From Actinomyces respiraculi (lineage in GTDB: Bacteria; Actinomycetota; Actinomycetes; Actinomycetales; Actinomycetaceae), in contig NZ_CP063989.1 in NCBI RefSeq assembly GCF_014595995.2, forward strand, positions 2,294,001 through 2,358,000: DNA of 64,000 nt, in the 5' to 3' direction. The translations under genes and the position numbers were made by a program. A model generated the notes under the pieces. The model was not told the DNA's origin. It did no database searches and saw only the letters and a list, made by a program, of their open reading frames with translations. This document shows, one piece after another, positions 18,199 to 57,299 of this stretch (its first letter is position 1; every line of letters starts with the position of its first letter).

Positions 18199-18242
18199 AC
18201 CGTAGGCTCGCGGCCGGGCCGCCGTGAAGGGGCCTGCGCCCC
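18199..18242 (-). promoter_or_regulatory. DosR-box-like palindrome and -10 of the DUF192 gene
   Basis: Palindrome GGGGCCTGCGCCCC at 18229-18242, then 24 bp, then TACGGT at 18204-18199 (minus strand). The expected transcription start coincides with the GTG at 18192. Confidence 0.6.
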
Positions 18243-18394
18243 GCGCGTGTGCGTCCCCGACCTTCTACGCCGTCATCCCGGCGCTGCTGGCGGCGTGCGC
18301 CCCGCGCGTGTGCGTCCCCGGCCACGTGACCGATCGCACCGTGCTGGAGCCGTGCAGCGCTTGCGGTGCGGGGGAGCAGGACCGGTAGTGTGGC

Positions 18395-18550
18395 ACCTGC
18401 CAAAGACCGCAGGTCTCCCGGTCCGCGAGGATCAGGACCAAGTTCGGCGCCCATGGGCGGCGAGGCCGGCGCAGGTGAGAACGAGACCCCTCCGCGTCGT
18501 GCGGAGTGAGAGCCCCGTGCCTTGCCGGCGCGGGGCTTCTTCCGTTTCTA
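18395..18550 (+). ncRNA. Ribosomal protein L10 leader
   Basis: The RNA upstream of rplJ contains CAAAGACCGCAGGTC and, later, GGCGCAGGTGAGAACGAG, the signature pieces of the L10-leader family. In that family the L10(L12)4 complex binds its own mRNA to lower expression. It ends with a strong hairpin, GCCCCGTGCC paired with GGCGCGGGGC (about 18512-18536), followed by the T-rich TTCTTCCGTTT. That makes an attenuator plausible. The exact 5' end was not determined. Confidence 0.75.
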
Positions 18551-18588
18551 GGCACGGACACCTGCGGCAGACCACGGAAGGAGGGCCC

Positions 18589-19110
18589 ATGGCAAGGCCT
18601 GACAAGGAGGCGGCTGTCGCCGAGCTCGCGAGCAAGTTCCGCGACTCCGGTGCCGTGCTGCTGACTGAGTACCGCGGGCTGACCGTCGCCGAGCTCAAGG
18701 AGCTGCGTCGTTCGCTCGCCGGTCACGCCGAGTACACCGTGGTGAAGAACACGCTTGCCGCCATCGCTGCCCGCAAGGCCGGCCTGGAAGCCTTCGCTGA
18801 CGACCTCAAGGGCCCCACCGCCCTGACCTTCGTCACCGGTGAGCCGGTCGAGGCCGCCAAGGCCCTGCGTGACTTCGCCAAGGACAACGCCAAGCTCGTC
18901 GTCAAGGGTGGTGTCATGGACGGTAACGTCCTCAACGCCGCTGAGGTCGAGAAGTTGGCTTCGCTCGAGTCCCGTGAGGTGCTGCTCGCCAAGGCTGCTG
19001 GCGCTATGAAGGCGTCGCTGTCCAAGGCTGCGTACCTCTTCGTCGCGCCCGCCTCCAAGGCGGTTCGCACTGTCGACGCCCTGCGCGAGAAGCAAGAGGC
19101 CGCGGCCTGA
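18589..19110 (+). CDS. rplJ: 50S ribosomal protein L10
   Basis: L10, 173 residues, forms the base of the ribosomal stalk and carries L7/L12 dimers on its carboxyl-terminal helix. The start [17 protein letters not shown] has a GGAAGGAGG site upstream, and [17 protein letters not shown] and [13 protein letters not shown] are typical. Longer in-frame readings through the leader are rejected. The gene is preceded by an L10 leader and followed by rplL after 88 bases. It points away from rpoB, the reverse of the usual arrangement. Confidence 0.98.
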
Positions 19111-19198
19111 GCCGCGTGCGTCACCCCTCACACCACAACACAGACCCTGTGCTGAACATAGACGGTGCAGGACCCTTTTTCAGGAAGGAACGCCCATC

Positions 19199-19588
19199 AT
19201 GGCGAAGCTGACCACCGACGAGCTCATCGAGGCTTTCAAGGAGCTCACCCTCATCGAGCTGTCCGAGTTCGTGAAGGCCTTCGAGGAGACCTTCGACGTC
19301 ACCGCTGCCGCTCCGGCCGCCGTTGCCGTTGCCGCCGCCCCCGGTGCCGCCGCCCCCGGCGCTGCTGAGGAGGAGAAGGACGAGTTCGACGTCATCCTCG
19401 AGGCTGCCGGCGACAAGAAGATCGGCGTCATCAAGGAGGTGCGCGCACTGACTTCCCTCGGCCTGAAGGAGGCCAAGGAGCTGGTCGACGGCGCTCCCAA
19501 GGCCGTCCTCGAGGGCGTCAACAAGGAGACCGCTGAGAAGGCCAAGGCTCAGCTTGAGGGCGCCGGTGCCACCGTCACTCTCAAGTGA
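19199..19588 (+). CDS. rplL: 50S ribosomal protein L7/L12
   Basis: L7/L12, 129 residues, forms the mobile stalk dimers that recruit translation GTPases. The amino-terminal dimerisation part is followed by an Ala/Pro-rich hinge around residues 38-58. The carboxyl-terminal domain then shows [20 protein letters not shown], the conserved factor-binding face. An AAGGAA site precedes the ATG. A very strong hairpin 60 bases after the stop ends the rplJL transcript. Confidence 0.98.
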
Positions 19589-19648
19589 GTCCTACCCCGA
19601 CGCCGTCGGCTGCCGCCTAGTGGTGGCTTGACGGAAGGGGACCTGCTA

Positions 19649-19677
19649 TGCCCCGTCCACCAATGGTGGGCGGGGCA
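19649..19677 (+). terminator. Terminator of rplJL
   Basis: A 13-bp stem with one G-T pair joins 19649-19661 and 19665-19677 around a three-base loop. Its arm contains CCCCGTCCACC, a motif that recurs near 21410 and in the CRISPR-like repeats. Confidence 0.85.
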
Positions 19678-19863
19678 CAGTGATGTCTGGGGGCTGATGA
19701 GTGGTACTTGGTTGTGGCCAGCTACACACATGGCTGTAACGGCAGGATTGCGGGCATCGCGATGCGGTTGCGGCTGTATTACGGGCCGGACGGTGGTTGA
19801 ATGGCGGTAGTTCCCCGTGGTGTCAACACAGGCACCTTCCCCATCCCACCCCAGGAGACCACG

Positions 19864-21378
<1,515 letters not shown>

Positions 21379-21413
21379 GCTCACAACTGCGCCCTGAGCA
21401 ACGGCTTACCCCG

Positions 21414-21431
21414 TCCACCACCCCAGGTGGA
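21414..21431 (+). terminator. Probable terminator of the surface protein gene
   Basis: TCCACC at 21414-21419 pairs with GGTGGA at 21426-21431, with outer bases (ACGGC...GCCGT) also complementary. It lies 36 bases after the stop. Confidence 0.5.
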
Positions 21432-21852: not shown

Positions 21853-21866
21853 GGGGCGTTCGCCCC
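21853..21866. promoter_or_regulatory. DosR-box-like palindrome upstream of the prepilin peptidase
   Basis: GGGGCGTTCGCCCC, identical to the box in front of the giant pilin-like gene at 38366. It lies 60 bases upstream of the peptidase start, but no TANNNT is found at the usual spacing. Confidence 0.45.
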
Positions 21867-23850: not shown

Positions 23851-23894
23851 ACGCTACCGGTCGCCCCGCGCCTCAGGCCAGGGGCGTTCACCCC
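23851..23894 (-). promoter_or_regulatory. DosR-box-like palindrome and -10 of a lipoprotein gene
   Basis: GGGGCGTTCACCCC at 23881-23894, then 24 bp, then TAGCGT at 23856-23851 on the minus strand. The predicted leader is about 58 bases. Confidence 0.6.
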
Positions 23895-25270: not shown

Positions 25271-25279
25271 CGACGTCTC

Positions 25280-26830: not shown

Positions 26831-26922
26831 CACAGCAGCGCTCCTCACTCGGTTCAGTCGAACAGGGACCCGACCACCACGAGCATAGAGGGCCGTATCG
26901 TGGCTGTGGATCCCCATGCCAA

Positions 26923-26936
26923 GGGTCGTGCTCCCC
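26923..26936 (-). promoter_or_regulatory. DosR-box-like palindrome of OmpA lipoprotein A
   Basis: GGGTCGTGCTCCCC, 93 bases upstream of the start. A TACGGC lies 25 bp downstream on the minus strand, a weaker -10 than in the sister promoters. Confidence 0.45.
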
Positions 26937-33332: not shown

Positions 33333-33385
33333 ATTCTAAGCGGCGCACATGGCGGTGGACGTCGGACGGCCGGGGACGGCTCCCC
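33333..33385 (-). promoter_or_regulatory. DosR-box-like palindrome and -10 of the four-helix gene
   Basis: GGGGACGGCTCCCC at 33372-33385 and TAGAAT at 33338-33333 (minus strand). The spacing is 33 bp, about one helical turn longer than in the sister promoters. Confidence 0.4.
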
Positions 33386-33854: not shown

Positions 33855-35399
33855 TCAGTTGCACACCGGGTTGGCTTCTCGCTGCCGCGGCGCACCCGGA
33901 GCCGACGGCGACGCCAGGTAGGTCGAACTGACAACACTCTGGTCCTCCTGCGAGGAGGAGTAGCCCAGTCCAAGCTTGACTCCCAGGGCGACACTACCAC
34001 TAAGGGAGAACTTGCTACTGTCGACGTCGTAGACGGTGTGGGAGCTGGTCGCTCCCTCGTACAACGCCTGCCCCATCGGGTCGTCCGGAGCAGGCGCCGA
34101 GGGATCGAGGATGTTTGCCGGAATGAGGGCGACATTGGAGGCAGGGATATCCATCCCAGGCGGGCTGATAAGCCCACGCTGGTAGTCCTCGGCGGAGTTT
34201 TCCAAGTTCTGTGCCGCCCACTGCGTGACAACCGCACGGTTGGCATCCGTCACCTCAAGCGTCGTCTTGGTGACATGGGACTGCTTGAGCGTGCCCTCAC
34301 CGCTGGCAGTGCCTTCCTTATCGCCGACCTTGTTGAGGGGCTTGTTAGACCCTGTCCAGGTGAGATCCCCGGATGTGATCTGGTTGAAGGTCACGCTCGA
34401 CAGCTGGGGCAGGCCGTTCGGCCCGGGCTTGAAGTTGTAGGTGATGGTCCCCGTGTAGGAGCCCGTCCCACCAACACCGACGAACACGGCGTTGGCACCC
34501 CCACCGATCGTCCCCTCGTAGGTGGTCGTCAGTGAGTACTCGCCCTCGTGATCGGGACGGTGGTCCCTGGTGACTGTCAGGGACTTATCATATGAGGCCT
34601 TGGCATACAGACCGACGTTAGGGTTGACACTCTTCTCTTTGGTCTCCTCGTTGTCCTTGCCGAAGCGCAGGCCAGCATCACCATTGGCAAGGCTGCCTGT
34701 CTTGAGGGTGTACGAGGTTCTCTCAGCGTGCCTTGGCGGCTGGGGCCAGCTGCCCGTGAGCAAGGCGTATCCAGCACGCAACGGGTCGGCGACCATTCTC
34801 AAGCGATCGTGGTAGTCCCTGTACTGATCGACGAAGGAGTTCATCTCCTCCTCGGAGTCAAACTCCCACGTCTCGCCGATCCTGGCGCTGCGGGTGCTTT
34901 CCAAAGACAGGTCCGCACCGATACCCGAGTTGGCCAACTCTCCCTTGGTCCCGACCCCTGCCCCGGTCGCCTCTTCGAGCGCATTGGCAGCAACGACCCG
35001 GTACCGGATCTTGAGCTTGCCGGTCTCAGGGTCGTAGTACTGCTCGCGCTGGGTGAGAAGGTCATGGTTCGGGCCGATCTTGACGACCCCGATCTTCGCG
35101 TCGGCCTTCACACCGTCCTTGTGGGAGGAGACGACGCACTCCCCCGGCCGACGCGGGTCCACAGACTCCTGGCCTGCCGACCCTGCCTGCTCGCTTCCAC
35201 CACAAGCCCCGCCAAAGATCTTGCAGATTTCGTTGCTCACACCGTTCGCGATGTCCCGGCCGACCGGCGTCATCCCCGTCGCAAGCGCCCCCACAAGGAT
35301 GACAACGACGACAACAACCCCCGCGTACACCACCGTGCCCGCACCAGACTCACCACGACGCACTCGCCAGAGCACCCGGCACAGACTGCCCTGCCCCAT
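33855..35399 (-). CDS. Giant Flp-pilin-headed secreted protein, copy 2
   Basis: A 514-residue protein with a Flp/TadE-type head followed by a domain of about 460 residues that I do not recognise. The head reads RRGESGAGTVVYAGVVVVVV. A prepilin peptidase cut after G19 would leave Val at +5, where pilins have Glu, followed by the usual Tyr. Large pilin-like proteins without Glu5, such as GspK of type II secretion, sit at the fibre tip, so a tip adhesin or initiator is plausible. GGGAGGAAG lies upstream of the ATG. It is related along its whole length to 36759-38282. The Cys pair after the helix (NEICKIFGGACGG) may form a disulphide. Confidence 0.75.
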   Translation of the reverse strand: MGQGSLCRVLWRVRRGESGAGTVVYAGVVVVVVILVGALATGMTPVGRDIANGVSNEICKIFGGACGGSEQAGSAGQESVDPRRPGECVVSSHKDGVKADAKIGVVKIGPNHDLLTQREQYYDPETGKLKIRYRVVAANALEEATGAGVGTKGELANSGIGADLSLESTRSARIGETWEFDSEEEMNSFVDQYRDYHDRLRMVADPLRAGYALLTGSWPQPPRHAERTSYTLKTGSLANGDAGLRFGKDNEETKEKSVNPNVGLYAKASYDKSLTVTRDHRPDHEGEYSLTTTYEGTIGGGANAVFVGVGGTGSYTGTITYNFKPGPNGLPQLSSVTFNQITSGDLTWTGSNKPLNKVGDKEGTASGEGTLKQSHVTKTTLEVTDANRAVVTQWAAQNLENSAEDYQRGLISPPGMDIPASNVALIPANILDPSAPAPDDPMGQALYEGATSSHTVYDVDSSKFSLSGSVALGVKLGLGYSSSQEDQSVVSSTYLASPSAPGAPRQREANPVCN

Positions 35400-35441: not shown

Positions 35442-35485
35442 AGGTTACAGGTATGACCGACTGGCCGATAAGGGGCAGCAGTCCC
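35442..35485 (-). promoter_or_regulatory. DosR-box-like palindrome and -10 of giant gene copy 2
   Basis: GGGGCAGCAGTCCC at 35472-35485, then 24 bp, then TAACCT at 35447-35442 (minus strand). A second palindrome, GGGATGTTCATCCC, lies at 35548-35561. Confidence 0.5.
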
Positions 35486-38335: not shown

Positions 38336-38379
38336 ACAATACGCAGCGGGTCCATCCGCGAGACAGGGGCGTTCGCCCC
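38336..38379 (-). promoter_or_regulatory. DosR-box-like palindrome and -10 of giant gene copy 1
   Basis: GGGGCGTTCGCCCC at 38366-38379, then 24 bp, then TATTGT at 38341-38336 (minus strand). The predicted leader is about 47 bases. Confidence 0.65.
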
Positions 38380-44237: not shown

Positions 44238-44280
44238 ACACTAACGCCTCCGAGGTGCCCGCAGCCGGGAACTTCTCCCC
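44238..44280 (-). promoter_or_regulatory. DosR-box-like palindrome and -10 of OmpA lipoprotein B
   Basis: GGGAACTTCTCCCC at 44267-44280, then 23 bp, then TAGTGT at 44243-44238 (minus strand). The predicted leader is about 75 bases. Confidence 0.55.
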
Positions 44281-44349: not shown

Positions 44350-44568
44350 TCAGCCGCCGAAGGAGAAGATCTTCGCGATCCGGTTACCGATCTCGTTGGC
44401 CATATTCTGTCCCCAGTCGCTAGCAGAGCTAGCGAGGGCGACAACGAGGATGACGGCGACGACGATGACGCCGGCGTACTCGGCAGAACCCTGACCAAAC
44501 TCGGACTTACGGATGCGGTCGATGAAGCAGGCAAAGGCAACCTGGGCCTGAAGGAGCTTGTCGGACAT
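44350..44568 (-). CDS. flp: Flp-type pilin (major pilin)
   Basis: A 72-residue prepilin. The leader ends at G25 and the mature part begins QGSAEYAGVIVVAVILVV, with Glu at +5 and Tyr at +6 as required for Flp pilins. A hydrophobic helix and a short amphipathic tail ending AKIFSFGG follow. GGGAGG precedes the ATG. It has its own DosR-box promoter and a very strong terminator, fitting a highly expressed single-gene unit between the Tad operon and the OmpA operon. It is the only intact Flp pilin in the window. Confidence 0.88.
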   Translation of the reverse strand: MSDKLLQAQVAFACFIDRIRKSEFGQGSAEYAGVIVVAVILVVALASSASDWGQNMANEIGNRIAKIFSFGG

Positions 44569-44641: not shown

Positions 44642-44685
44642 ACTCTATGGGAGAGCCGCTGACCTCCCCTAGGGGCGCTCGCCCC
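44642..44685 (-). promoter_or_regulatory. DosR-box-like palindrome and -10 of flp
   Basis: GGGGCGCTCGCCCC at 44672-44685, then 24 bp, then TAGAGT at 44647-44642 (minus strand). The predicted leader is about 67 bases. Confidence 0.65.
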
Positions 44686-44707: not shown

Positions 44708-45352
44708 CTAACGACCCGGGGCGTCCGGCTCACCACGAGCCTCGCGCCAGGCGATGACCGCCTCGGCCCGATTGTGCACACCGAGCTTGACGTAGGCAGC
44801 GTTGAGATAGTTCTTGACGGTGCGCGGAGACAGGAAGTGCTCGCGGGCGATGTCGACGTTGCTCAGGCCCTGGGACGCGGCCTCGAGCACAAGGGCCTCG
44901 CGCTCGCTGACGATTCCTGACAGCGGGTGGGGATCGGTCCCTTGGGGCGCGTCCGCCACCCGAATCTGCTTGGCGGCAGCCGCCGACAGCACCATCCCGC
45001 CCTGACGGCAGGTAGAAATGGCACCGCTGACGTCCTCGATGCCGAGGCTGCCGTGGACGAGGTAGCCGCTCGCTCCTCGGGCGAGGGCCGTCGAGATGCT
45101 CTCGGCGTCGTCCGCGCTCGTGAGCATGATGACGCGCGCGCGCTCGACCAGCGAAGGGAGAGCCTCCAGCCCGTTCATACGCGGCATGCGCACATCGAGC
45201 AGCACAATCTCAGGCGAGAAACTCCTGGCCACCTCAATGGCCTCGACACCGTCCGAGGCCTGGCGGACCTCCGTCACGTCCGGGACCTGCTCCAGCACCC
45301 GCAGAAGCCCGATCCGAACGATGGCGTTGTCGTCAACAACAAGGACCTTCAT
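44708..45352 (-). CDS. NarL/LuxR-family response regulator
   Basis: A 214-residue response regulator. The receiver has acidic D7 and D8 and phospho-acceptor D53 (VLLDVRMP), but the conserved switch Lys is replaced by His (GYLVHGS, H100), so its phosphorylation behaviour may differ. The DNA-binding domain ends with the recognition helix SPRTVKNYLN. TVKNY is also found in mycobacterial DosR, where the Lys and Asn contact DNA. The ATG at 45352 has GAGGAG upstream and lies 10 bases after the kinase gene. It is the probable regulator of the GGG(N8)CCC palindromes in this island. Confidence 0.9.
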   Translation of the reverse strand: MKVLVVDDNAIVRIGLLRVLEQVPDVTEVRQASDGVEAIEVARSFSPEIVLLDVRMPRMNGLEALPSLVERARVIMLTSADDAESISTALARGASGYLVHGSLGIEDVSGAISTCRQGGMVLSAAAAKQIRVADAPQGTDPHPLSGIVSEREALVLEAASQGLSNVDIAREHFLSPRTVKNYLNAAYVKLGVHNRAEAVIAWREARGEPDAPGR

Positions 45353-45362: not shown

Positions 45363-46556
45363 TCAGGTACCAGGTTCGAGGGACATATCAGGCAGAGGGA
45401 CACGAATGACGGCACGGACGCCGTCTCCCTCACGATTAGTTAAATGCAGTGTGCCACCGAGCCCTGCGACGCGTTCGCGCACGCCTCGCAGGCCGTAGTG
45501 GCCGGAACCACCCAGATTGTCCGGCTCCTCCACGATCATGCGTGGCATACCAACGCCGTTGTCCTCGACGACGAGTAACAGATCCTCATCGGCCGAGATC
45601 GTCAGTGCCACATGATCGGCGCCGGCGTGCCTCTCGATGTTGGTCAGCAGTTCGCCCAGCGCCCGCTGACAATGCCAGGTGACCGAGGCGTCGGCCGCGA
45701 CGGCGGTGGTGCTCGGGCACCGGATATCCACGTCGACCCCAACGCGGCTGCTCCACGTGCGGGCGTCCTCCGCCAGACGCGCCACGAGGTCCCCCTGAGG
45801 CGCGGAGCGCAGCTCATCCAGAACAGCGCGCGACTCCACAGCCAGTGCGGCGGCAGCGGCCAGGAGGTCAGCGGCATCGCCTGCCCGCCGGGATCCCTCG
45901 CGCTCGAGGACGGCATGGTGGGCCTCGGCAAGCATCCGCAGTCCTGCCGCGGACTTGGCGACTGTGTCGTGCAAGTCACGGGCGAGGACGAGCCGTTGCT
46001 CGTTCGCGGAGGACAGTGCCTGCGCCTCGGCCAGGTCCGCGGCTATGCGCTCAATGGTGGAGACCTGGCGCGCTACTCGCCCCCCGAGCCCGAGCAGCGC
46101 CACGGCCGAGACGATAGAGACCGCGACGAGTACGCGTTGCTCTTTCGCTCCGTCAAAGAACTCGAGGACACCGGCCAACAATGCAGGTGCCGCCCACGCG
46201 ATCGCAGAACGCGGCCCGACGATCATGCCGATCATGACCGCCGAGAGCAGCAGGTGGCCGATGGCCAGGACGAGGTGGCTGCCGGGAACCATGGCGGCGG
46301 TGACGAGTACCGAGCCGGAGACCACGCCGTCCCAGGCAGCAAATCTGGTGCCGAGAACGAGAGGGCTGCCCTGACCCCCACGCCCCCAGCGCAGGAGCAG
46401 CACGAGGTTGCCGGGCACGGCGAGCAGCACGACCCCAAGAAGAAGACCAGAGACCTTGGTCAGGCCACCCACGAGGACAAGGAGCAGGAGGACCAGTCGT
46501 CCGTCCACCAGCAGGCGGACGGGGGGAGCAAGAGCGGCCTCTGACAGCCGTCCCAT
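45363..46556 (-). CDS. Sensor histidine kinase (HisKA_3 type)
   Basis: A 397-residue kinase with about six membrane helices in the first 160 residues and no large outside domain. Then follows a dimerisation helix with phospho-acceptor H196 (LVLARDLHDTVAKS) and a Bergerat ATPase domain with LGELLTNIERHA, VEDNGVGMP and GHYGLRGVRERV. It is paired with the regulator directly downstream and lies at the end of the Tad operon, so it probably controls pilus expression. The ATG at 46556 is chosen just after the TadC stop; a GTG at 46571 is possible. The stimulus is unknown. Confidence 0.88.
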   Translation of the reverse strand: MGRLSEAALAPPVRLLVDGRLVLLLLVLVGGLTKVSGLLLGVVLLAVPGNLVLLLRWGRGGQGSPLVLGTRFAAWDGVVSGSVLVTAAMVPGSHLVLAIGHLLLSAVMIGMIVGPRSAIAWAAPALLAGVLEFFDGAKEQRVLVAVSIVSAVALLGLGGRVARQVSTIERIAADLAEAQALSSANEQRLVLARDLHDTVAKSAAGLRMLAEAHHAVLEREGSRRAGDAADLLAAAAALAVESRAVLDELRSAPQGDLVARLAEDARTWSSRVGVDVDIRCPSTTAVAADASVTWHCQRALGELLTNIERHAGADHVALTISADEDLLLVVEDNGVGMPRMIVEEPDNLGGSGHYGLRGVRERVAGLGGTLHLTNREGDGVRAVIRVPLPDMSLEPGT

Positions 46557-46563
46557 ACTGGCT

Positions 46564-47454
46564 TCAACCACCAAGGAGCCCCTGGAAGGCATCCGCGTTG
46601 GCAATGAGCATGCCTCCAACGATGAGGATGATCGCACCAGGCACGATGGTCATGGTGACGACGACGGAGACCTTGGGCTGGGCTTTGGCCGCAGCCCTCC
46701 GAACCTGCTGAGCCCGCTCACGACGAACCTCCGCAGCAATCTGGTGCAGCGCGTCTGCCAGAGGCGTACCCAGCTCCTCGGCCTGAAGCAAGGCCGTGAC
46801 GAAGGAGGAGACGTTCTCCGAGCGGTTGCGCCCACGTAGAGCCTCCAATGCGGTACGTCGCGGAACACCGAGCTGCATCTCCCGCAGAGTCGTGGCCAGC
46901 TCGTCCGAGAGCGGTCCATCATGGTGCTCCGACACACGCTGCATGGCAACACGGAAGGGAAGACCCGCAGCCACCGTGACGGCGAGGACATCGAGGAAGT
47001 CAGGCAACTCACGTTCGATCTGTGCCTGGCGCGAACGGATCGTGAGTATGAGCCAGGCATGCATCCACAGCATGAACAACACCCCGACCCCGATGCCGAG
47101 CATCGTGCGCCCGTTGAGCATCGCCAGAACCATGAGCAGCATACCGAGGGTGATAAAGCCGGCTTCACGCTGGATGAAGACCTGGGCGGTGAGGTCCGCG
47201 GGCTGGCCTGCGGCTCTCAGGTCGTGCGAAAGCTTACGGACACGCTCAGGACCATAGATGTCGAGAAGCAACCGCTGAGTGGCGGAGCCGATGCGGTCAA
47301 TGCTCCGAACGAAGGGCCCGTCGGAACGCTTGCTGAGCGCCGCCTCGTGCGCGTCATCCAGCTCATCCGTCAGAGTCACACGCAGCATACGCACACCCGA
47401 GGCGGCCAGCAGGATGAGGCCTGCAGCCGCAAGGCCGAAGAGCAACGACGTCAT
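46564..47454 (-). CDS. tadC: TadC-like pilus platform protein
   Basis: A 296-residue T2SS-F family membrane protein, the second inner-membrane platform subunit of the Tad machine. The F domain shows ERELPDFLDVLAVTVAAGLP and LGTPLADALHQIAAEVR. Helices lie near both ends. The ATG overlaps the TadB stop by one base (TGATG). The order TadA-TadB-TadC is canonical. It should work with TadB to turn ATP hydrolysis by TadA into pilin extrusion. Confidence 0.9.
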   Translation of the reverse strand: MTSLLFGLAAAGLILLAASGVRMLRVTLTDELDDAHEAALSKRSDGPFVRSIDRIGSATQRLLLDIYGPERVRKLSHDLRAAGQPADLTAQVFIQREAGFITLGMLLMVLAMLNGRTMLGIGVGVLFMLWMHAWLILTIRSRQAQIERELPDFLDVLAVTVAAGLPFRVAMQRVSEHHDGPLSDELATTLREMQLGVPRRTALEALRGRNRSENVSSFVTALLQAEELGTPLADALHQIAAEVRRERAQQVRRAAAKAQPKVSVVVTMTIVPGAIILIVGGMLIANADAFQGLLGG

Positions 47455-48380
47455 CACACGTCCACCTTGCCGACGATCTTCATGAGGACGGCGCCGAGGA
47501 GGAACAAGACACCAGAGACAACAAGCACCACCTGTCCCATGAAGGAGCCCGCCATCTGGTCGATGAGACCGGGTTCGATAAAGTTGAGCAGGATGACGGC
47601 ACCCCCACCGATGAGCATGACGGCGTAGCCGGAGACGGCAGAGCCGAGGATGACCGTCTGGACCTCCCGGTGCAACTCCTTGCGCTGCTCAAGCGCCTGG
47701 GCGATGTCGAAGAGGGCGTCGGTGAGAGCACCACCCGTACGCCCTTGGATAATGATCGTGCGCATGAGGATATTGATCTCACGCGAGGGCATCCGCTGGG
47801 CAAGTTCGGCCAAGGCCTGGTCAGTGCTCCAGCCAACCTCAAGCCGGTGGACGACACGGCGCATCTCTGCGCCCGCCGGCTCCGCCATCTCACGTCCCGC
47901 CATGGCGAGGCAACGTCCCATCGACAAACCCGCCGAGTTGCCGTTGGCAATGATGCGGGTCAATTCGGGCAGCTGGGCGATGAAGTCCTCCAGGCGCTTG
48001 GCGGAACGCCGCGACAGCCAACGTTGAAGGACTGCCGGAGTGATCAGCGTGAGGATGATGGAGGCGGTATACCCCAACAGCGCCCTGCTGGCGACGAAGA
48101 TGACGAGCATCACGACGATAACCCCGAGGAGCGTCATCAGGGGTGACCACTTCAGGCCGGCCGTTGTCAGCGCCCTACTGAAGCGGGAGAAGGGTTCCCG
48201 GGAGAAGAGGATGCGCTCCAGTCGCGGCAGGAACCGACGCCCACCCCCGCTCTCGCCAACGGTCACCGACCACAACTCGCGGCGTCGCGCGAACTCGTCA
48301 GCGAGGATGACAACTGCCCACACGCCGATGGCGAGGGACACCAGCAGGATGATGAGGATGAACCGGGCCGTGAGGGTCAC
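47454..48380 (-). CDS. tadB: TadB-like pilus platform protein
   Basis: A 308-residue T2SS-F family membrane protein. The F domain includes EDFIAQLPELTRIIANGNSA and GALTDALFDIAQALEQRKEL. One helix is at the amino end, one pair in the middle and another pair at the end. The GTG start overlaps the TadA stop by four bases (GTGA). It forms the inner-membrane platform with TadC and contacts the TadA ATPase. Confidence 0.9.
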   Translation of the reverse strand: MTLTARFILIILLVSLAIGVWAVVILADEFARRRELWSVTVGESGGGRRFLPRLERILFSREPFSRFSRALTTAGLKWSPLMTLLGVIVVMLVIFVASRALLGYTASIILTLITPAVLQRWLSRRSAKRLEDFIAQLPELTRIIANGNSAGLSMGRCLAMAGREMAEPAGAEMRRVVHRLEVGWSTDQALAELAQRMPSREINILMRTIIIQGRTGGALTDALFDIAQALEQRKELHREVQTVILGSAVSGYAVMLIGGGAVILLNFIEPGLIDQMAGSFMGQVVLVVSGVLFLLGAVLMKIVGKVDV

Positions 48381-49660
48381 GAGCGTGCCTCACCGTAGCC
48401 TGGAGGAGGGGTCTCGCCTGCCCAACTGAGCCGATCAAGGATCGCGCGATCAAGTGGGAAAGCCCGGAAGGCGCCTGCATCGTCCTTCTGCTCGTAGCGC
48501 AGGATGGGGGCGGTTGCGTACTGCTCCCGGTGCTGGGAGGTCACCTGGTCGATCTGACGCACGCGCCGGACACCGGAGGAGTCACGTTCGAGCTGGATGA
48601 TGATGTCGATGGCGCCATTGATCTGGTCACGCAGCGTGTCGACAGGCAGATCAAGGTCAGACATCGAGGCAAGGGTCTCAAGGCGACCGAGGGCGTCGTG
48701 TGCCGAGTTGGCGTGAACGGTGGTGAGCGATCCCTCGTGACCGGTGTTCATGGCCTGGAGCATGTCAAGGGTCTCTCCACCACGGACCTCGCCAACGACG
48801 ATGCGATCAGGGCGCATACGCAGAGAGTTTCGCACAAGGTCGCGGATCGAGACCTGCCCCTTGCCCTCCGTATTGGCGGGCCTCGCCTCCAGACGCACGA
48901 CGTGCCCCTGCTGAAGCGAGAGCTCGGCGGAGTCCTCGATCGTAATGATGCGCTCGCGGTCGGGGATGAGGCCCGACAGAGCGTTGAGGAAGGTCGTCTT
49001 GCCGGTACCCGTACCGCCCGAGACGAGGATGTTGAAGCGTGCGCGCACCATGGCGCCGAGCAAGGCGGACGCCTCCTCCGGCAGGGAGCGGCGCGCCACC
49101 AGGTCAGGCATCCGGAAGGGCGTGGGGAAGCGTCGGATCGTCATCGTCGGCCCGTCGAGCGCGAGCGGCGGGATGATGACATTGACGCGCTCACCGCCGG
49201 CGAGGCGGGCGTCAACCATGGGGCTTGACTCGTCAACACGTCGGTTGACGGAGGAGACGATACGGTCGATGGTCTGCATCAGCTCCTCCTCCGAGCGGAA
49301 GGCGGAGGGGATGCGCTCAATGCGCCCCGAACGCTCGACGAAGAGGTCGTGCACACCGTTAACCATGATCTCAGTGACGGTCTCGTCCGCGATGAGCGGC
49401 TCAAGCACACCAAGGCCGACGGCGTCGTCAACGATGCGCTGGATGAGGCGTGCCCGGTTGCGCGTCGACATGACCGGGCCCTCGAAGGAGAGCAACCGCG
49501 ACAGCACACGCTCAAGACGCGCGCGCTTGACCGGCATGTCGAGGTCGGCGACCTCGTCGATGTTGATCTCCTCGAGGAGCCGGGCGCGGAAGTGATCGAG
49601 GAGCTCTTCAGTCTCGTCGGCGTGGAGATCCACCCCGCCGACACGGTCCATAAGTGACAT
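48377..49660 (-). CDS. tadA: TadA/CpaF secretion ATPase
   Basis: A 427-residue hexameric ATPase that powers the Tad pilus. Walker A is GGTGTGKTT (from residue 215), the Asp box region is [10 protein letters not shown], Walker [12 protein letters not shown] with E291, and the His box SLTTVHANS near 311. The amino-terminal helical part is typical of CpaF. The ATG overlaps the TadE stop (TGATG) and has GGGAGG upstream. All catalytic motifs are intact. Confidence 0.95.
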
Positions 49661-50031
49661 CAAGCCTCCCTCGTGGGGAAGGTGGCCTTGGCACTGATCG
49701 GGACCCGGATCACCTCGACGATCGACGGGATACCGAGGGGGATCGACGCGCGGACGTTGACACAGCCGCGCCCGCAGGTCGTGACGCTGGTGACATCGAT
49801 CCAGTCCGGCAGGGAGGCCATGACAGCGGGTCGCGGCGCCTTGTTCTCCTCCAGGGCCCTGGCCCCGTCACGGGCCGCATCACGCAGCTCCGAGACAGCT
49901 GACACCGCGGCGATGCCCTGGACGAGGAGCACGAGGAACATGACGAGGATAGGAACAAAGGCAGCCATGGAGACAGCCGCCTGCCCCTTCTGCCCTCTGC
50001 GCAGCCTCGTGAGTGCGGTTCTGAGTCCCAT
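49660..50031 (-). CDS. TadE-like pseudopilin
   Basis: A 123-residue TadE-family protein. A basic start with RRGQKGQAAVSMAAFVPILV forms the prepilin-like site and helix; the usual Glu at +5 after the G is replaced by Ser or Ala depending on the cut chosen. The outside part has a Cys pair (TTCGRGCVNVRAS). The ATG at 50031 lies one base from the stop of the upstream fusion gene, with GGGAGGAATG as ribosome site. It is the partner of the TadE domain of the fusion protein. Confidence 0.8.
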   Translation of the reverse strand: MGLRTALTRLRRGQKGQAAVSMAAFVPILVMFLVLLVQGIAAVSAVSELRDAARDGARALEENKAPRPAVMASLPDWIDVTSVTTCGRGCVNVRASIPLGIPSIVEVIRVPISAKATFPTREA

Positions 50032-50032
50032 C

Positions 50033-51634
50033 TCATTCCTCCCAGTCGATCGTGGCGTCGGCGGAGACACTGTTGAGCCCGGGCACCTTCAGTGGCAGGT
50101 CGACCGTAACCGTCACCGTGTCCGAGCCGGAGCGTCGCACGTGCATGCCGCCCTGCAGCCCCCCCGGCATAGCCGCGGAGGCTGCGGCTACGGCAGTGGA
50201 GTAGGACGCACCGCGGGCGTACTGGCGCGCCGCCTCCTGCGCGCTGCTCTGTGCCATGAAGGCGATGCTGGCTGCGAACAGAAGGTGGAGAACTAGGGCG
50301 AAAAGAAAGAGAGCGACGACAAGGACCCCGGCAAACTCAACACTGGCCTGTCCTTCCTCTCCGCTGTGGCGGCCACGCAGCCCCGTCCTCCCCGTCCTCT
50401 TGCTGCGACGCCCCTTGGGCTTGTCAGCACGACGCCGACCGGGAGGTGCGGGGGCCGGCGGGGGTGCAGGTGCCGGCGCAGGTGTTCCGAGAGTCTCCTC
50501 AGGAACGAGCAGCAGGTCGGCAATCCGGCGACCCGCCTGGGTGAAGGGTGCCACGTCCAGGTCAAGTACCGTTCCGGCGTTGATCGTCGGCTCCAGGCGC
50601 TGCCCACAATCAGGGATCTCAGCGAGCATCTCCAGGCCGGCAAGCTTCGCCGCAGTGGCGGCCTGGATCTCCCTGTGCCGTGAGGAGCGGTTGAGCACCA
50701 TGCGCACCGGGGTCCCACGTCCGATGGTCAGACGGTCCATCGTCGCTGTCAGGCGGCGCACCGAACTCAGCGCGGGAACCTCCGGCGTCGCGACGATGAC
50801 GATCTCGTCCGCGAGGTCGAGGGCGGCGGCGGAGGTCACGGTGACGGCACTGCCACAGTCGATGACCACCTGCGGGTACTGATAGCGGAGGGCCTGGAGG
50901 ATCTGACGTGCCGCGGTCTCGGTCATCGCCTCGGCGGTCTCCACGGCCGGCGGCGCGGGCAGAAGCTCGACACCGCCGCGCAGGGGATAGGCAACCTCAG
51001 TGATCTCACGGCCGCCGAGCTCAGCGGCGACGGAGACGAGGTCGACGACGGAGTGGCGCACACGCAGGCCGCAATAGGAGGCCTGATCACCGGAACTGAG
51101 GTCGAAGTCGAGCAACGCCGTCGGACCGCGCCCGCTTGCCGCCCTGGCGGCCATGAGGGCGATCATTGAGGTTCCGACTCCACCCTTGGCCCCGATGACG
51201 GCAACGATACGTCCAGTGCGCTGGACCCGGACGTTGGAGTCCGCACTGCGCTGGTCTCGCACCTGCCGGGTCCACGCCGACAGGGAGCGCAGACGTTCGG
51301 CGTAGGACTCGATGGAGGGCGGCAGCGGCAGGACCGCGCGGGCACCGGCGTCCATGGCTCGAAGCACAAGCTCGGTGTCAACACGGGGTGCCAGGAAGCA
51401 CACGGGAAGCAGCGGGTTCATCGCGACCAGTTCGCGCAGAAGCCCAAGCCCCTTGCCGTGGTCCTCGCTCTCGTCAACGAGGACCAGGTCAAGGTCCTGA
51501 CGCTCGATCTCCAGGCGCGCCTGCCCCAGAGAAGCGACGGTGACGGGCGCAGTGAAACCGTCGAGCTCGCTGAGGACGGCGGCGACGGCGGAGGCCGTGG
51601 AGGCTTCCGAGGAAATAAGCAGAACCTGGGTCAC
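50033..51634 (-). CDS. TadZ/CpaE ATPase fused to a TadE pseudopilin
   Basis: A 533-residue protein combining two Tad components normally made separately. Residues 1-125 form a receiver-like domain. Residues 140-380 form a MinD/CpaE ATPase with GAKGGVGTS at 148-156. Residues 383-427 are a Pro/Ala then Arg/Lys-rich linker. From 425 on, GEEGQASVEFAGVLVVALF is a complete prepilin site and helix, with Glu at +5 after G428, followed by a TadE-like outside domain. No ATG or GTG is found in the linker. Cleavage by prepilin peptidase at G428 would release an ATPase in the cytoplasm and a mature pseudopilin in the membrane. Confidence 0.85.
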   Translation of the reverse strand: MTQVLLISSEASTASAVAAVLSELDGFTAPVTVASLGQARLEIERQDLDLVLVDESEDHGKGLGLLRELVAMNPLLPVCFLAPRVDTELVLRAMDAGARAVLPLPPSIESYAERLRSLSAWTRQVRDQRSADSNVRVQRTGRIVAVIGAKGGVGTSMIALMAARAASGRGPTALLDFDLSSGDQASYCGLRVRHSVVDLVSVAAELGGREITEVAYPLRGGVELLPAPPAVETAEAMTETAARQILQALRYQYPQVVIDCGSAVTVTSAAALDLADEIVIVATPEVPALSSVRRLTATMDRLTIGRGTPVRMVLNRSSRHREIQAATAAKLAGLEMLAEIPDCGQRLEPTINAGTVLDLDVAPFTQAGRRIADLLLVPEETLGTPAPAPAPPPAPAPPGRRRADKPKGRRSKRTGRTGLRGRHSGEEGQASVEFAGVLVVALFLFALVLHLLFAASIAFMAQSSAQEAARQYARGASYSTAVAAASAAMPGGLQGGMHVRRSGSDTVTVTVDLPLKVPGLNSVSADATIDWEE

Positions 51635-51646
51635 AGTGGACCTCCT

Positions 51647-52339
51647 TCACTCACCGTAGGTCGTCTGGCTATCAGCAAGCGGGGCGTCGTCGCCAGTGCC
51701 ACGCAGGGCGAGACGGAGCTTGACAGCGAAGCTCTCCGCGTAGGAGATCTTCAGGCTGTCCGCGGTGCTCAGAGCGAAGGTCACAGGAACAGCCTGGGTC
51801 TCCGTGAAGGCGCCCGAAGCGTTCTCCCCCTCGACCGTCGTCGCCACGCCGACATCGATGATGAGAGCGTTCTGGACGATGATCTGCGCAGTTCTCGCAC
51901 CGGTCGCCTCATCCTCGATGGTGGCGATGATGTCGACGTAGTCGCCGGGCTTGATGCGTCCGGCGACACCGGTCTCTGCGTCGACCATGATCGCCACCTC
52001 GCGGGCGCCGTTCGTCAGGCCGGGCGGGTCGGTGAGCATACCGGTCTGAAGCACTGATCCCGCGGCGTAAGTGCCAACGGCAACAAGTCCCTCAACCTGG
52101 CCGTATGAGGACACGGCGTTCACGGGCGCCCATCGCTCAGGCACCTCGACGACCTCGACGTCCGCCTCGGTGATGGCGTGCAGAGCCTCGACGTCGGTCG
52201 TCAGCCTGAGGACCTGGGTCATCGGCCCCACCTGCGAGGAGACAGAACTGACGTAGGTGGCAACACCGACAAAGGTGAGTGCAGCTCCCAGGAGGGTGAC
52301 GAGCAGTAGCAGGACTCCTCGTCTCTGACGGGGGTTCAT
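51647..52339 (-). CDS. cpaB: CpaB/RcpC-like pilus assembly protein (SAF domain)
   Basis: A 230-residue protein with an amino-terminal membrane helix (GVLLLLVTLLGAALTFVGVA). It has a SAF domain with the segment ITEADVEVVEVPERWAP and a second domain starting GAREVAIMVDAETGVAGRIK, as in Flp pilus assembly protein CpaB. In Gram-negative bacteria CpaB helps the outer-membrane secretin. In this monoderm it probably lies outside the membrane, perhaps in the wall. Its ATG overlaps the upstream stop by four bases. It precedes the TadZ-TadE fusion gene. Confidence 0.85.
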   Translation of the reverse strand: MNPRQRRGVLLLLVTLLGAALTFVGVATYVSSVSSQVGPMTQVLRLTTDVEALHAITEADVEVVEVPERWAPVNAVSSYGQVEGLVAVGTYAAGSVLQTGMLTDPPGLTNGAREVAIMVDAETGVAGRIKPGDYVDIIATIEDEATGARTAQIIVQNALIIDVGVATTVEGENASGAFTETQAVPVTFALSTADSLKISYAESFAVKLRLALRGTGDDAPLADSQTTYGE

Positions 52340-53109
52340 AATGCGATCCTCTCAGTCCGGGGGGCCGGAGCAAAGACTCGGGGGGAGAGAACGATGCCGC
52401 AGAAGGGACACCCGGTCGGTGCGGTAGCCCTGCCACAGGCGCGGCAGGACGTGCGCAGCACGGTGCCGATGGCCGTGCGGACGGCTCGGGCAACATCGGG
52501 GTGCCAGGAGACCTCAGCCCAGTACCGGGCGCCATCGAGTCTGCCGCTGTCACTCGGGAGCACGACAGGCGGTACCCGCACGCCGAGCCCGACGGACAGG
52601 TGCCCCATCTCACTGCTCGAGGCCCACACGACATCGAGGGAATCGCCAAGGTCCCACTGGATGCCCTCACGGAAGATGATGGTGTCGGCCTCGAGGTCGA
52701 TATCGAAAGAGGGCTTGGGGAAGAGGCTCCGCAAGTGCTGTCTCAGGGTGGGCTTGGGGCTCACCAGGGAAGTCACAGAGCTCAGAGCCTTGCGGGTGTT
52801 GCATTGGCGATTGATCGCTCGGACGACATAGTCGGCCATGCCGTAACTCTCTGGCGGAAGGTGTGTCAACGCTCGCAGCAGTAGGGCCTTGCGGGTGCGG
52901 GGGCCGTCCAGGGTGACGAGGGCGACATCGGGACGGGCAACAACCTCACGGGCCATGAGGGCGGGGCGGGCGGCGACGTCGGCGCCCACGACGAGGAGGG
53001 CATCTCCGGGGACCGATTCAACGGCGGCGACAGCGGCATCGACGTCGGGGACCTCAAGGTAGCCCACCGGTGCAGGCAGGCCGACCGCGACGGCGGAGGT
53101 AAGGATCAC
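52336..53109 (-). CDS. Tad operon protein with a carboxyl-terminal zinc ribbon
   Basis: A 257-residue soluble protein of no recognised family. The end contains CRACGRATAPTGCPFCG, a four-Cys zinc ribbon. The earlier part has PDVDAAVAAVESVPGDALLV and PRTRKALLLRALTHLPPES. The start is GTG at 53109 with GGAAGAG upstream; longer readings upstream are rejected because that segment lacks family-like or plausible protein sequence. The stop overlaps the CpaB start (ATGA). Its place suggests a cytoplasmic accessory function in pilus assembly. Confidence 0.7.
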   Translation of the reverse strand: MILTSAVAVGLPAPVGYLEVPDVDAAVAAVESVPGDALLVVGADVAARPALMAREVVARPDVALVTLDGPRTRKALLLRALTHLPPESYGMADYVVRAINRQCNTRKALSSVTSLVSPKPTLRQHLRSLFPKPSFDIDLEADTIIFREGIQWDLGDSLDVVWASSSEMGHLSVGLGVRVPPVVLPSDSGRLDGARYWAEVSWHPDVARAVRTAIGTVLRTSCRACGRATAPTGCPFCGIVLSPRVFAPAPRTERIAL

Positions 53110-53188
53110 GACAGGTTCTCTTCCAATGGTGTCGGGATGAAGACGGAGATCTCGTGGCGCGTGTGCAACGCCGACCCTGCACGCCGGG

Positions 53189-53656
53189 CTAATACCGTAG
53201 CCCACCGCGTAAGGTCGAGCCGTTCTCGTCCCATCCCCGGCCGCCCTGAGGGCTTCTGCTGCGACGGCCGAGAAGGGCTGGCGTCACGAGCCCGAGCACG
53301 AGGAACATGAGCCGAACAAGGCCGGGTACGGACACCTCCGCGTTGGCCGCCACATCCCACCCGGCGACGGCGAGGACAGCCACAGCAGCGCCCATGAGGG
53401 CTCGCGCCATGCGGTCGACGTGGTCCTGTCCCCGGTAGGAGGCCAGACGCAGCCCCATCCAGTCGGTGACCAGCCCCCACAAGGCCAGGAGTGGGATCTC
53501 CAGGGGCACCTCGGGAACCGATGAGAGGATCCGCAGCGAGTCGTGCCATGGGCCCACCAGAGACCGTTCGAGGACGGTGCCACTGGCTGCGACAAGGCCG
53601 ACGACGACGGGGCCGCCCCACGACTGAGGTCGAGACTGAGCTCCGGTAGCACACAT
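53189..53656 (-). CDS. Four-helix membrane protein, first gene of the Tad operon
   Basis: A 155-residue protein with four predicted membrane helices (near GPVVVGLVAASGTVL, PLEIPLLALWGLVTDWMGL, LMGAAVAVLAVAGWDVAA and GLVRLMFLVLGLVTPALLG). The ATG at 53656 has GGCAGGA upstream. It is the first gene after the DosR-box promoter and lies 79 bases before the zinc-ribbon gene. No family was recognised, and it is not similar to the 144-residue proteins of the giant-pilin cassettes. Confidence 0.65.
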   Translation of the reverse strand: MCATGAQSRPQSWGGPVVVGLVAASGTVLERSLVGPWHDSLRILSSVPEVPLEIPLLALWGLVTDWMGLRLASYRGQDHVDRMARALMGAAVAVLAVAGWDVAANAEVSVPGLVRLMFLVLGLVTPALLGRRSRSPQGGRGWDENGSTLRGGLRY

Positions 53657-53733
53657 ACGTCCTGCCTCTCGACCCACCCGCCTCCCGGAACGATGCGGTC
53701 CGGCAAGGGCCGCGTCGGCACGCGGCAAGCCCT

Positions 53734-53776
53734 ACGTTAGGTAGGTCATCGCCCCTGCCCCAGGGGCGAGTGCCCC
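53734..53776 (-). promoter_or_regulatory. DosR-box-like palindrome and -10 of the Tad operon
   Basis: GGGGCGAGTGCCCC at 53763-53776, then 23 bp, then TAACGT at 53739-53734 (minus strand). The predicted leader is about 70 bases. Confidence 0.65.
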
Positions 53777-53825
53777 TACCCGAGCCCTGATCTCGATATC
53801 TCAAATGTCGCCGACTCAACCGCGG

Positions 53826-53905: not shown

Positions 53906-53920
53906 TACTGACGACGGTTC

Positions 53921-55477: not shown

Positions 55478-55570
55478 GACAATGTCACTTCCTACGTGAT
55501 AGCGGCCGGTCAAGGCACCGGCCATGGAGAGCCTCACGAGAGCCGCTGCTCGGCGGAAGGCCCATCCTTC

Positions 55571-57136
55571 TCAGTCCTCTACGGGGATGTCGGTGAGGCG
55601 GGCCACCACGCCTCTATCCTTTTGGCCGTAGCCGGGAAGGTCCAGGGTGACGGTGTCCTGGCCCGTATCCGGCCACACCACCCCCAGCAGGATGGTGCCG
55701 TTCTCCTCGCTCGCGGCCAGGGAGATCGTCGTCGCCGGGATGTATCCCTTCGGCGACTCGTACTGGGCGGCCATGACCCGTGTCCCACCCTGCAGCAGGG
55801 TGAACGACGCCGTACCAGCCCCTGCCACGATTCCACGCCACTGTTCCGACAGCGGCACCGGCAGTCTGAACCTGTCGATCGAGGTAATGAGGCTGGCGCC
55901 GGACGGGGTCAGCTCGACATTACCCACCAGCCACGAGCCCACCCGCCTGACCCGCGGCAGAGCGATGTGAAGCATCGTCCCCTCAGTACCAGGATCAGCC
56001 ACGTCCACACCCCGAGCCCCGATGCCCACCGCACCCTTGGCCTCAGGCACCGGCCCCTGCGAACGCATGACCCGCCGGGCGCTCTCAGCCTCCGACGCAT
56101 CCGACGGCTCAGCCAGCACCTCCACCCGACGATTGGCCGCCCTGGCCTCATCACTCGTGCCCTCCACACGAGGCTCACTCTCACCCCTGCCCACCACAGA
56201 CACGTTCCACTTACCCAGGTCCGTCAACGACCCCAGCCGGTCAGCCACAGCCTGCGCACGACGCTCCGACAAACCCTGGTTATAGGCATCATCCGCCACA
56301 TCATCCGTATGACCCGTGATAGTCATGGCGCCCCCGGAGGGGTAGAACCCCAGCTGCTCGGTCACACCCGCCAGCACCGCATCCGCCTGCGCACTCAGCT
56401 CAGCCGAGTCCACAGCGAACGCCACGTCACCCGCGACAGTCACCGTCACCGTGCCGTCACCTGTGCTCGTCTCCGACGACCCATCCGCCGCCGCCGTGAA
56501 CGACGACAGCACAAACGGCCCAGCAATTGAGTCATCGATCTCGGCCTCCTCGATCGCACCCGCCGCATCGAACTCCGCCTGGGCTGCATCCACCACCGGC
56601 ACACCCGTCACCACTCCCAGGTTCGGCAGCAGCACCGTCACCGACTCCAGACCCGCCGGGACCTCACCGAAGGTCGGCATGAGCACAATGCCCTCCTCCT
56701 CGGTCCACGGCTTGGCAATGATGCTGGACAGGTCCGTCTCGCCCCACACCCTCGCCTCAGGCTCCGTCAACGACATCACCAGCACCCCCTGCATCGTGGA
56801 CGGCCCTCCGGTCCACCCCCCAAGGGAAGCCGCGACGGCGATGCGCTCGCCCTCCGTCGTCAGCCGCAGGCGCAGCACCGAGCGCGCCCCCACCCGCACC
56901 AACGGACCCACCTCCACACGCGTGGCCACCGCGTCCACACTCGTCTCCAGCACCACCGACGACGCACCCGCCGACGCAGACGCAGCAGCAGACGCAGAAG
57001 CGGACACCGCCCCCGACGAGGCCGACGCCGACGTCGCCACACCGTCAGGCTCCGAGCCCTTCGAGCACGCAGCAGCACCCGCCACCACCAGCACCGGCAC
57101 AACAAGAGCACCACGACGACTCAGCACCACGGACAT
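55571..57136 (-). CDS. OmpA-domain Tat lipoprotein D
   Basis: A 521-residue predicted lipoprotein, nearly the same as paralogue B. It has VLSRRGALVVPVLVVAGAAA plus Cys24, a Ser/Ala linker, a domain of about 190 residues, an OmpA domain (ITGHTDDVADDAYNQ, ARAANRRVEVL) and a carboxyl-terminal domain. Differences from B are concentrated in a few short blocks. GAGGAG precedes the ATG at 57136. A DosR-like box with TAGGGT lies upstream. Likely a peptidoglycan-binding surface lipoprotein associated with the pilus. Confidence 0.82.
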   Translation of the reverse strand: MSVVLSRRGALVVPVLVVAGAAACSKGSEPDGVATSASASSGAVSASASAAASASAGASSVVLETSVDAVATRVEVGPLVRVGARSVLRLRLTTEGERIAVAASLGGWTGGPSTMQGVLVMSLTEPEARVWGETDLSSIIAKPWTEEEGIVLMPTFGEVPAGLESVTVLLPNLGVVTGVPVVDAAQAEFDAAGAIEEAEIDDSIAGPFVLSSFTAAADGSSETSTGDGTVTVTVAGDVAFAVDSAELSAQADAVLAGVTEQLGFYPSGGAMTITGHTDDVADDAYNQGLSERRAQAVADRLGSLTDLGKWNVSVVGRGESEPRVEGTSDEARAANRRVEVLAEPSDASEAESARRVMRSQGPVPEAKGAVGIGARGVDVADPGTEGTMLHIALPRVRRVGSWLVGNVELTPSGASLITSIDRFRLPVPLSEQWRGIVAGAGTASFTLLQGGTRVMAAQYESPKGYIPATTISLAASEENGTILLGVVWPDTGQDTVTLDLPGYGQKDRGVVARLTDIPVED

Positions 57137-57255
57137 CACAACTCCTCACACGGGAATCAGGACGATGGCACAGCACCCGGGCACGTGAGGCAGCCGCGCC
57201 ATGAGCGATACACCAGTCAACCGGGGACCACCACAGCGGGACGCCGGTCACCTCG

Positions 57256-57299
57256 ACCCTATTCGACGGTGATCACCGCACCCATGGGGAGTGCTCCCC
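57256..57299 (-). promoter_or_regulatory. DosR-box-like palindrome and -10 of OmpA lipoprotein D
   Basis: GGGGAGTGCTCCCC at 57286-57299, then 24 bp, then TAGGGT at 57261-57256 (minus strand). The leader would be about 113 bases. Confidence 0.55.

Follow-up and report, generated by a model that had tools for sequence, protein, structure and literature searches.

The window described here comprises 64,000 nucleotides (G000:C1:2294001-2358000) of the 2.9-Mb chromosome of Actinomyces respiraculi and contains an island of Tad/Flp pilus genes, taken as 17.7-60 kb of the window. A mirror-symmetric box of 14 bp, GGG(N8)CCC, followed by a TANNNT hexamer, stands before the pilus genes and is very probably the landing site of the cluster's own regulator, by which these genes would be switched on. 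The genes identified behind boxes with TANNNT are flp, the first gene of the tad operon, genes for large Flp-like proteins and for lipoproteins (some with an OmpA domain) and one whose product is presumably of the DUF192 type, a name taken from an earlier sequence-only reading of this DNA and from general knowledge. Between 53205 and the regulator at 44708 the tad genes follow one another with overlaps or almost no gaps, and the last two encode the kinase and the regulator; the box at 53763 should therefore also drive these two, in a putative positive loop.

The sequence-only reading had listed eleven GGG(N8)CCC palindromes, eight of them with TANNNT at 23-24 bp. A search of the window recovered all eleven (Table 1) and exactly those eight spacings, with the same hexamers and all on the minus strand. 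The palindrome alone is at chance level, as that reading had held (47 matches where 60.2 are expected, a number reached by 95 of 100 shuffles), and its constant distance to a -10 is not: GGGG(N6)CCCC with TANNNT 10-40 bp behind it was identified 8 times, with 0.59 expected and none of 100 shuffles reaching 8. Seven of these 8 matches are on the minus strand, including 33372, and one on the plus strand. The assignment of the palindromes to eleven transcription units was too generous: six sites are strong, two have the spacing with weaker palindromes, 26923 is plausible, and 21853 and 33372 are doubtful.

The sites were also scored with a matrix trained on other genomes, excluding the genome under test. 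The background consisted of 400 kb of this chromosome, sampled as 20 stretches of 20 kb, in which 10 matches scored 10-13.7. Six of the eight spaced window sites score 18.9-26.6, above the best background match of 13.7.

Table 1. Boxes, regulatory genes and pilus-related genes in the window (positions counted from the first letter of the window; scores are those of the site matrix)
Feature	Position	Strand	Details
Box GGGGAGCACTCCCC	57286..57299	minus	24 bp to TAGGGT 57256-57261; promoter of OmpA-domain lipoprotein (gene 57136-55571); score 18.9
Box GGGGCACTCGCCCC	53763..53776	minus	23 bp to TAACGT 53734-53739; tad operon promoter; score 24.4
Box GGGGCGAGCGCCCC	44672..44685	minus	24 bp to TAGAGT 44642-44647; flp promoter; score 21.1
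Weaker palindrome GGGGAGAAGTTCCC	44267..44280	minus	23 bp to TAGTGT 44238-44243; precedes OmpA-domain lipoprotein 44156-42591; score 12.2
Box GGGGCGAACGCCCC	38366..38379	minus	24 bp to TATTGT 38336-38341; promoter of large Flp-like protein (gene 38282-36759); score 26.6
Weaker palindrome GGGACTGCTGCCCC	35472..35485	minus	24 bp to TAACCT 35442-35447; precedes large Flp-like protein 35399-33855; score <10
Box GGGGTGAACGCCCC	23881..23894	minus	24 bp to TAGCGT 23851-23856; lipoprotein promoter (gene 23786-22776), counterpart in G024; score 25.5
Box GGGGCGCAGGCCCC	18229..18242	minus	24 bp to TACGGT 18199-18204; promoter of leaderless DUF192 gene 18192-17797; score 22.5
Plausible site GGGGAGCACGACCC	26923..26936	minus	25 bp to TACGGC 26892-26897; precedes OmpA-domain lipoprotein 26830-25280; missed by matrix
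Doubtful site, consensus palindrome GGGGCGAACGCCCC	21853..21866	minus	CAATGT at 24 bp; no convincing gene behind; score 20.0 from palindrome
Doubtful site GGGGAGCCGTCCCC	33372..33385	minus	nearest TANNNT is TAGAAT at 33 bp, then 144-residue protein 33288-32854
NarL-family response regulator	44708..45352	minus	start at the MKVLVV methionine, open reading frame opens at 45433; recognition helix PRTVKNYL
Membrane sensor histidine kinase	45363..46637	minus	HATPase_c above cut-off, HisKA_3 just under; five hydrophobic segments
tad genes: TadC, TadB, TadA (T2SSE), TadE-like, CpaE-like, RcpC/CpaB, unknown protein 52336-53205	46564..53205	minus	
First gene of tad transcript	53189..53656	minus	155-residue hydrophobic unnamed protein
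flp	44350..44568	minus	72-residue pilin, core GQGSAEYAGVIVV
Large Flp-like protein	36759..38282	minus	507 residues
Large Flp-like protein	33855..35399	minus	514 residues
DUF192-type protein	17797..18192	minus	GTG start 6 nt after -10 hexamer; NCBIfam NF002996 matched below cut-off

The spaced box is a local feature of this chromosome. The sequence GGGGMGNNCKCCCC with up to one mismatch is not enriched genome-wide (210 forward matches, and 275 for the control read backward). The consensus GGGGHRNNYDCCCC occurs in 37 chromosomal places, 6 of them in the window, and its backward-read control in 24. Five of the six in the window have TANNNT at the right spacing, whereas the 31 outside it, inspected in both directions, have TANNNT at 22-26 bp in 0 of 62 cases, so that, judged by the strict consensus, the regulon is local. 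A strict site was defined as GGGG-N6-CCCC with TANNNT at 23-25 bp; the hexamer is found at this distance behind 6 of 9 GGGG(N6)CCCC palindromes in the island and none of 14 in the 400-kb sample. For GGG(N8)CCC the counts are 9 of 35 and 1 of 297, the sole background match being GGGGCCGCGCACCC at L191 position 9705 (+), with TAGTCT at 23 bp. The genome scan that the sequence-only reading had proposed thus places box plus hexamer in the island, and nowhere else in the genome with the strict consensus.

The same arrangement recurs in related genomes before orthologous genes. Forty-eight other genomes of the genus were searched, and the 19 with an island TadA at 72-80% identity were taken as relatives; the remaining 29 contain only TadA matches of about 45% identity or below. 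From each relative, 15.9-40 kb around TadA were taken, and the spacing profile covered 5-60 bp. Pooled over the 19, TANNNT was identified behind GGGG-N6-CCCC 15, 24 and 3 times at 23, 24 and 25 bp, that is 42 times, against 6 times in total at the 53 other spacings. All 20 island genomes contain at least one strict site, with 48 altogether. Sequence behind the regulator gene is available for 18 relatives (the contig of G001 stops short of the site), and in all 18 the matrix identified an flp box there, each time with TANNNT at a distance of 23-24 bp; 11 of these boxes are strict and 7 have one altered letter in an arm. A Flp-like open reading frame is next after the box in 17 relatives, that of G034 falling below the threshold of the listing.

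Four palindromes of the relatives are flanked by TANNNT at 24-25 bp on both sides (L126 6791-6804, L128 9124-9137, L129 9495-9508 and L171 ~9823-9836), so one site may serve two divergent promoters. In G005 and G061 a palindrome precedes the large Flp-like gene, with CAACCT or TTCACT as the hexamer.

The promoter layout is best seen at the DUF192 gene, whose start codon is located 6-8 nt behind the -10 hexamer in the window and in 13 relatives; the messenger RNA should therefore have little or no leader. For a transcript that begins at a codon 6 nt behind the hexamer, the box centre would be at -42.5 (23 bp) or -43.5 (24 bp), in agreement with the position near -42 proposed in the sequence-only reading. 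Aligned on the -10, the sites contain no clear -35 hexamer, an extended -10 was identified in 1 of the 48 strict sites, and a T after CCCC is frequent. Class II activator sites are centred near -41.5, at promoters with a good -10 and a poor -35, and with the start point so predicted the present layout is of this class.

Position alone does not fix the sign of regulation, and PprB, the NarL-type regulator of Flp/Tad pili in Pseudomonas, represses its own gene according to the part of the source available (PMC6821963). A regulator that acts at the box as a repressor, or in both senses, is nevertheless improbable. Promoters without a clear -35 or extended -10 suggest that an activator is needed, and the centre at -42.5/-43.5 is near the class II position. 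As far as the source covers it, the start-proximal boxes of DevR likewise overlap the -35 of their target promoters (PMC3029386).

The protein most likely to occupy the box is encoded directly before flp. It belongs to the NarL/FixJ group, with Pfam Response_reg at 73.1 bits and GerE at 57.2 bits, both above cut-off, and 117 bits to the NCBIfam NarL model (cut-off 250). Its closest named match is from A. israelii DSM 43320 (54% identity) and the solved structures that match it best are NarL (105 bits), DevR/DosR (98.6) and VraR (89.2). In the adjoining kinase the domain search matched only HATPase_c and HisKA_3, with no GAF match. Outside the genus, the regulator was searched against 297 genomes of the order and 394 of the class, and the DNA was inspected beside 68 regulator genes and later beside 20 further ones, the box being sought in about 500 bp behind each. 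Among the first 68, 39 are linked to Tad genes, 28 by a TadC match and 11 by a Flp-like open reading frame behind the regulator.

Boxes were identified in 30 of these 39 loci (19 of the 28 linked by TadC and all 11 linked by the Flp-like frame) as GGG-N8-CCC with TANNNT at 23 bp (15) or 24 bp (15); at other spacings there were nine matches over seven distances. Unlinked regulators had the box in 0 of 29 cases in the first set and 0 of 20 in the later one. Two of the latter, L254 and L261, fit the Flp pattern rule and are not Flp by eye; counted as linked they change the comparison to 30/41 and 0/47. The box outside the genus is TTGGGYCY-NN-RGRCCC, with T before GGG, C in fifth and G in tenth place in 30 of 30 cases each; TTGGGCCC is the flp box type of another actinobacterium. 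The spacers share no further sequence by eye, except in the pairs L316/L318, L315/L317 and L302/L306. Ten regions of 30 kb around such loci have the order RcpC, CpaE, TadA, TadB/C, kinase, regulator, box. Of the 12 good boxes in them, 11 are located behind a regulator gene, so that, judging from these regions, the many-gene regulon is an elaboration of Actinomyces.

A tree of 91 sequences places the 20 Actinomyces regulators, the 39 Tad-linked ones and 11 unlinked ones in one group of 70 (support 100/99). The recognition helix is RTVKNY in 19 of the 20 Actinomyces regulators and RTVKNN in the other; outside the genus it is KTVKNH in 38 of the 39 Tad-linked regulators and KTVKNY in one. TVKN, which includes the equivalents of DosR Lys182 and Asn183, is found in all 59, while at the equivalent of DosR Lys179 all 20 Actinomyces regulators have Arg and all 39 others have Lys. 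Lys179, Lys182 and Asn183 make base contacts in DosR, according to the part of the source available (PMC4082495). The change to Arg coincides with the change in the inner letters of the box, only once in the tree.

Some other DNA-binding protein might occupy the box in place of the Tad-linked response regulator, for the genome of the window holds 21 matches to the regulator at E<=0.001. This is a little less probable still than repression, given that kinase and regulator matches are present in the islands of all 19 relatives, that outside the genus 30 of the 39 Tad-linked regulators and none of the 49 others are followed by the box, and that the palindrome has the GGG-N8-CCC shape bound by DosR and OsdR, with the TVKN helix also present in the regulator. 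Within the genus, no strict or loose site was identified in 16 other Tad loci (2 of the window genome and 14 of island-less Actinomyces, TadA at 41-45%), whose regulators were not annotated. The box thus goes together with the NarL-type regulator, strict sites occurring in 20 of 20 island genomes and 0 of 16 other Tad loci.

A terminator or attenuator hairpin is very improbable: the G+C-rich inverted repeat could fold, yet the DUF192 codon so close behind the -10 means that the palindrome should lie upstream of transcription, and a hairpin gives no reason for a fixed TANNNT spacing. A chance pattern of G+C-rich DNA selected by eye, which the bare palindrome without enrichment would fit, is negligible, since the spacing profiles of other genomes and the genome-wide controls refute it.

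The regulator may bind as more than one dimer. Outside the genus, 16 of the 30 boxes have an extra TGGGYC exactly 12 bp upstream of their own TGGG, with 0.03 expected per position. In Actinomyces, 13 of the 19 flp promoters contain GGGG(C/A/G) within the spacer, at 21-22 bp counted from the start of the box, compared with 4 such matches among 38 other sites; in the flp promoter of the window it is at 16 bp instead. This third half-site, a pattern found post hoc, hints at binding by more than one dimer, and DevR binds cooperatively as far as the source goes (PMC3029386).

The box, its spacing, orientation, targets, conservation and linkage to the regulator are read directly in the genomes. The preferred explanation, with a probability of about 0.86, is that a Tad-specific NarL-family response regulator, not an orthologue of DosR, activates from a DosR-like class II box whose inner letters were changed in Actinomyces and which spread over the island. 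The kinase in the membrane would phosphorylate the response regulator, whose gene is the last of the tad operon, and a regulator dimer would bind GGGG(C/A)G-NN-C(G/T)CCCC with its centre 42.5-43.5 bp before the transcription start. The bound dimer would touch RNA polymerase at promoters with a TANNNT -10 and no recognisable -35 or extended -10. The genes thereby switched on would be flp, the tad operon, with kinase and regulator themselves in a positive feedback, and those for large Flp-like proteins, lipoproteins and DUF192. The same module occurs across Actinomycetia, with TTGGGYCY-NN-RGRCCC at flp; in Actinomyces the inner letters would have been altered and the box distributed over the island. 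Binding, phosphorylation, activation and feedback are predictions from sequence.

Several points weigh against this explanation. Two of the eleven window sites (21853 and 33372) misfit; 44267, 35472 and 26923 fail to exceed the matrix background, 44267 (12.2) and 35472 (<10) being supported by spacing and gene context, and the flp site of G034 (13.0) is also inside that background. The DUF192 box is missing in 4 of the 17 relatives having the gene (G005, G063, G065 and G066). Nine of the 39 Tad-linked loci outside the genus contain no strict box, although in one of them, L300, the sequence ends 89 bp after the regulator, and G039 and G057 of family f4 keep the gene order without a strict box. 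The clade of Tad regulators includes 11 box-less members with no Tad gene detected within 1.5 kb. Finally, the switch of Lys to Arg and of box letters is confounded with ancestry because the coincidence occurs only once in the tree.

A wider form of the proposal is favoured by a narrow measure: a Tad-dedicated two-component switch throughout Actinomycetia, with the constant geometry GGG-triplet-NN-triplet-CCC at 23/24 bp from the -10. The inner triplet would have been rewritten from TTGGGYCY to GGGGCG together with Lys to Arg, the third half-site would imply a regulator that is more than a dimer, and many linked promoters would have changed their letters under one constant geometry.

Further features of the island and its counterparts were observed. 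Upstream of flp, G039 and G057 (L196 and L198) contain GGGTCC/GGGCCC direct repeats in place of the strict box. The box-less DUF192 upstream regions of G005, G063 and G066 (L114, L160 and L162) share CGGGTATACCCGGGCACC, which contains another palindrome. Large Flp-like proteins behind boxes have 474-514 residues and were identified in the window, G016, G024, G063, G065 and G066; the two of the window (36759-38282 and 33855-35399, minus strand) consist of a pilin-type N-terminus and about 430 mostly beta-rich residues. At least 25 matches, both window proteins included, were found among 5.8 billion proteins searched, Actinomyces ruminicola being the only species named among the matches listed. 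A low-confidence model resembles outer-membrane barrels, which would be odd for a bacterium without an outer membrane.

Four OmpA-domain lipoprotein genes are present on the minus strand of this gram-positive host (25280-26830, 42591-44156, 53921-55537 and 55571-57136), with near-identical N-termini in two of the four and a box or near-box before three. The 289-residue protein of 52336-53205 (minus) has no Pfam or NCBIfam match and was found in the islands of 18 of 19 relatives. A Ser/Thr protein kinase gene adjoins the island (57381-59939, minus) and was matched in 8 of the 19 regions taken from relatives. Two open reading frames of equal length, 566 residues, are located in opposite orientation at 28579-30279 (+) and 30711-32411 (minus), the latter matching Transposase DDE.

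Tad/Flp pili have a role in adhesion and, in Micrococcus luteus, in the uptake of DNA, as the available part of that report describes (PMC4322843); their control in actinobacteria is scarcely covered in the literature searched, which was seen in part. A visually recognisable box, for which a leaderless target suggests the start point, would make pilus regulons predictable in many genomes. The two box types and the matching single helix change offer a ready case of a regulator and many sites changing together.

In the parts available, the Micrococcus luteus flp paper (PMC4322843) does not contain the words LuxR, histidine kinase or two-component, nor does the Cutibacterium Flp-plasmid paper (PMC5696575) contain these or regulator and promoter. 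No description of this box or of a Tad-linked actinobacterial NarL regulator was recognised in the open-access PMC literature searched, as far as the texts were accessible. A NarL-family activator with a class II box is a known kind of system; the regulon, the box and its class-wide extent appear undescribed in that literature.

Among related systems, PprA-PprB of Pseudomonas aeruginosa is a two-component control of Flp/Tad pili with a NarL/LuxR-type regulator, as the accessible parts of two papers describe it (PMC3510237, PMC6821963). It belongs to another phylum than Actinomyces, and its predicted site, GGCTAATAC, is without the GGG-N8-CCC palindrome; pprB is RpoS-dependent besides being self-repressed (PMC6821963, in part). 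NarL itself is the best-scoring solved structure, but its helix, STVKVH, is without the Asn. OsdR of Streptomyces coelicolor has a similar box: AGGGCCGATCGGCCCT, given in the available text (PMC5069765), has GGG-N8-CCC in common and is near the TTGGGYCY-NN-RGRCCC found outside Actinomyces. The OsdR regulon overlaps that of DevR, and Tad, Flp and pilus are absent as words from the main text as far as accessible (PMC5069765).

The sequence-only reading had compared the system with DosR/DevR of mycobacteria, and the comparison stands for the box architecture and, apart from the Lys179 equivalent, for the recognition helix; it does not for the regulator as an orthologue, the inner letters or the kinase. 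The mycobacterial DosR box is GGGACT..AGTCCC, and the DosR kinases DosS and DosT carry GAF domains. An orthologue of DosR was rejected: DosR, NarL and VraR are outside the Tad group, in a midpoint-rooted tree where their branches are long and the exact place of DosR is unsure, and no GAF was matched in the kinase. The helix is KTVKNY in DosR and RTVKNY here, the inner triplet is ACT/AGT in DosR, mostly GCG or GAG in Actinomyces and YCY outside the genus, and the targets here are pilus genes. Both regulons are multi-gene, the 14-bp GGG-N8-CCC dyad is common to the two, and here also, with the predicted start point, it overlaps or abuts the -35 region.

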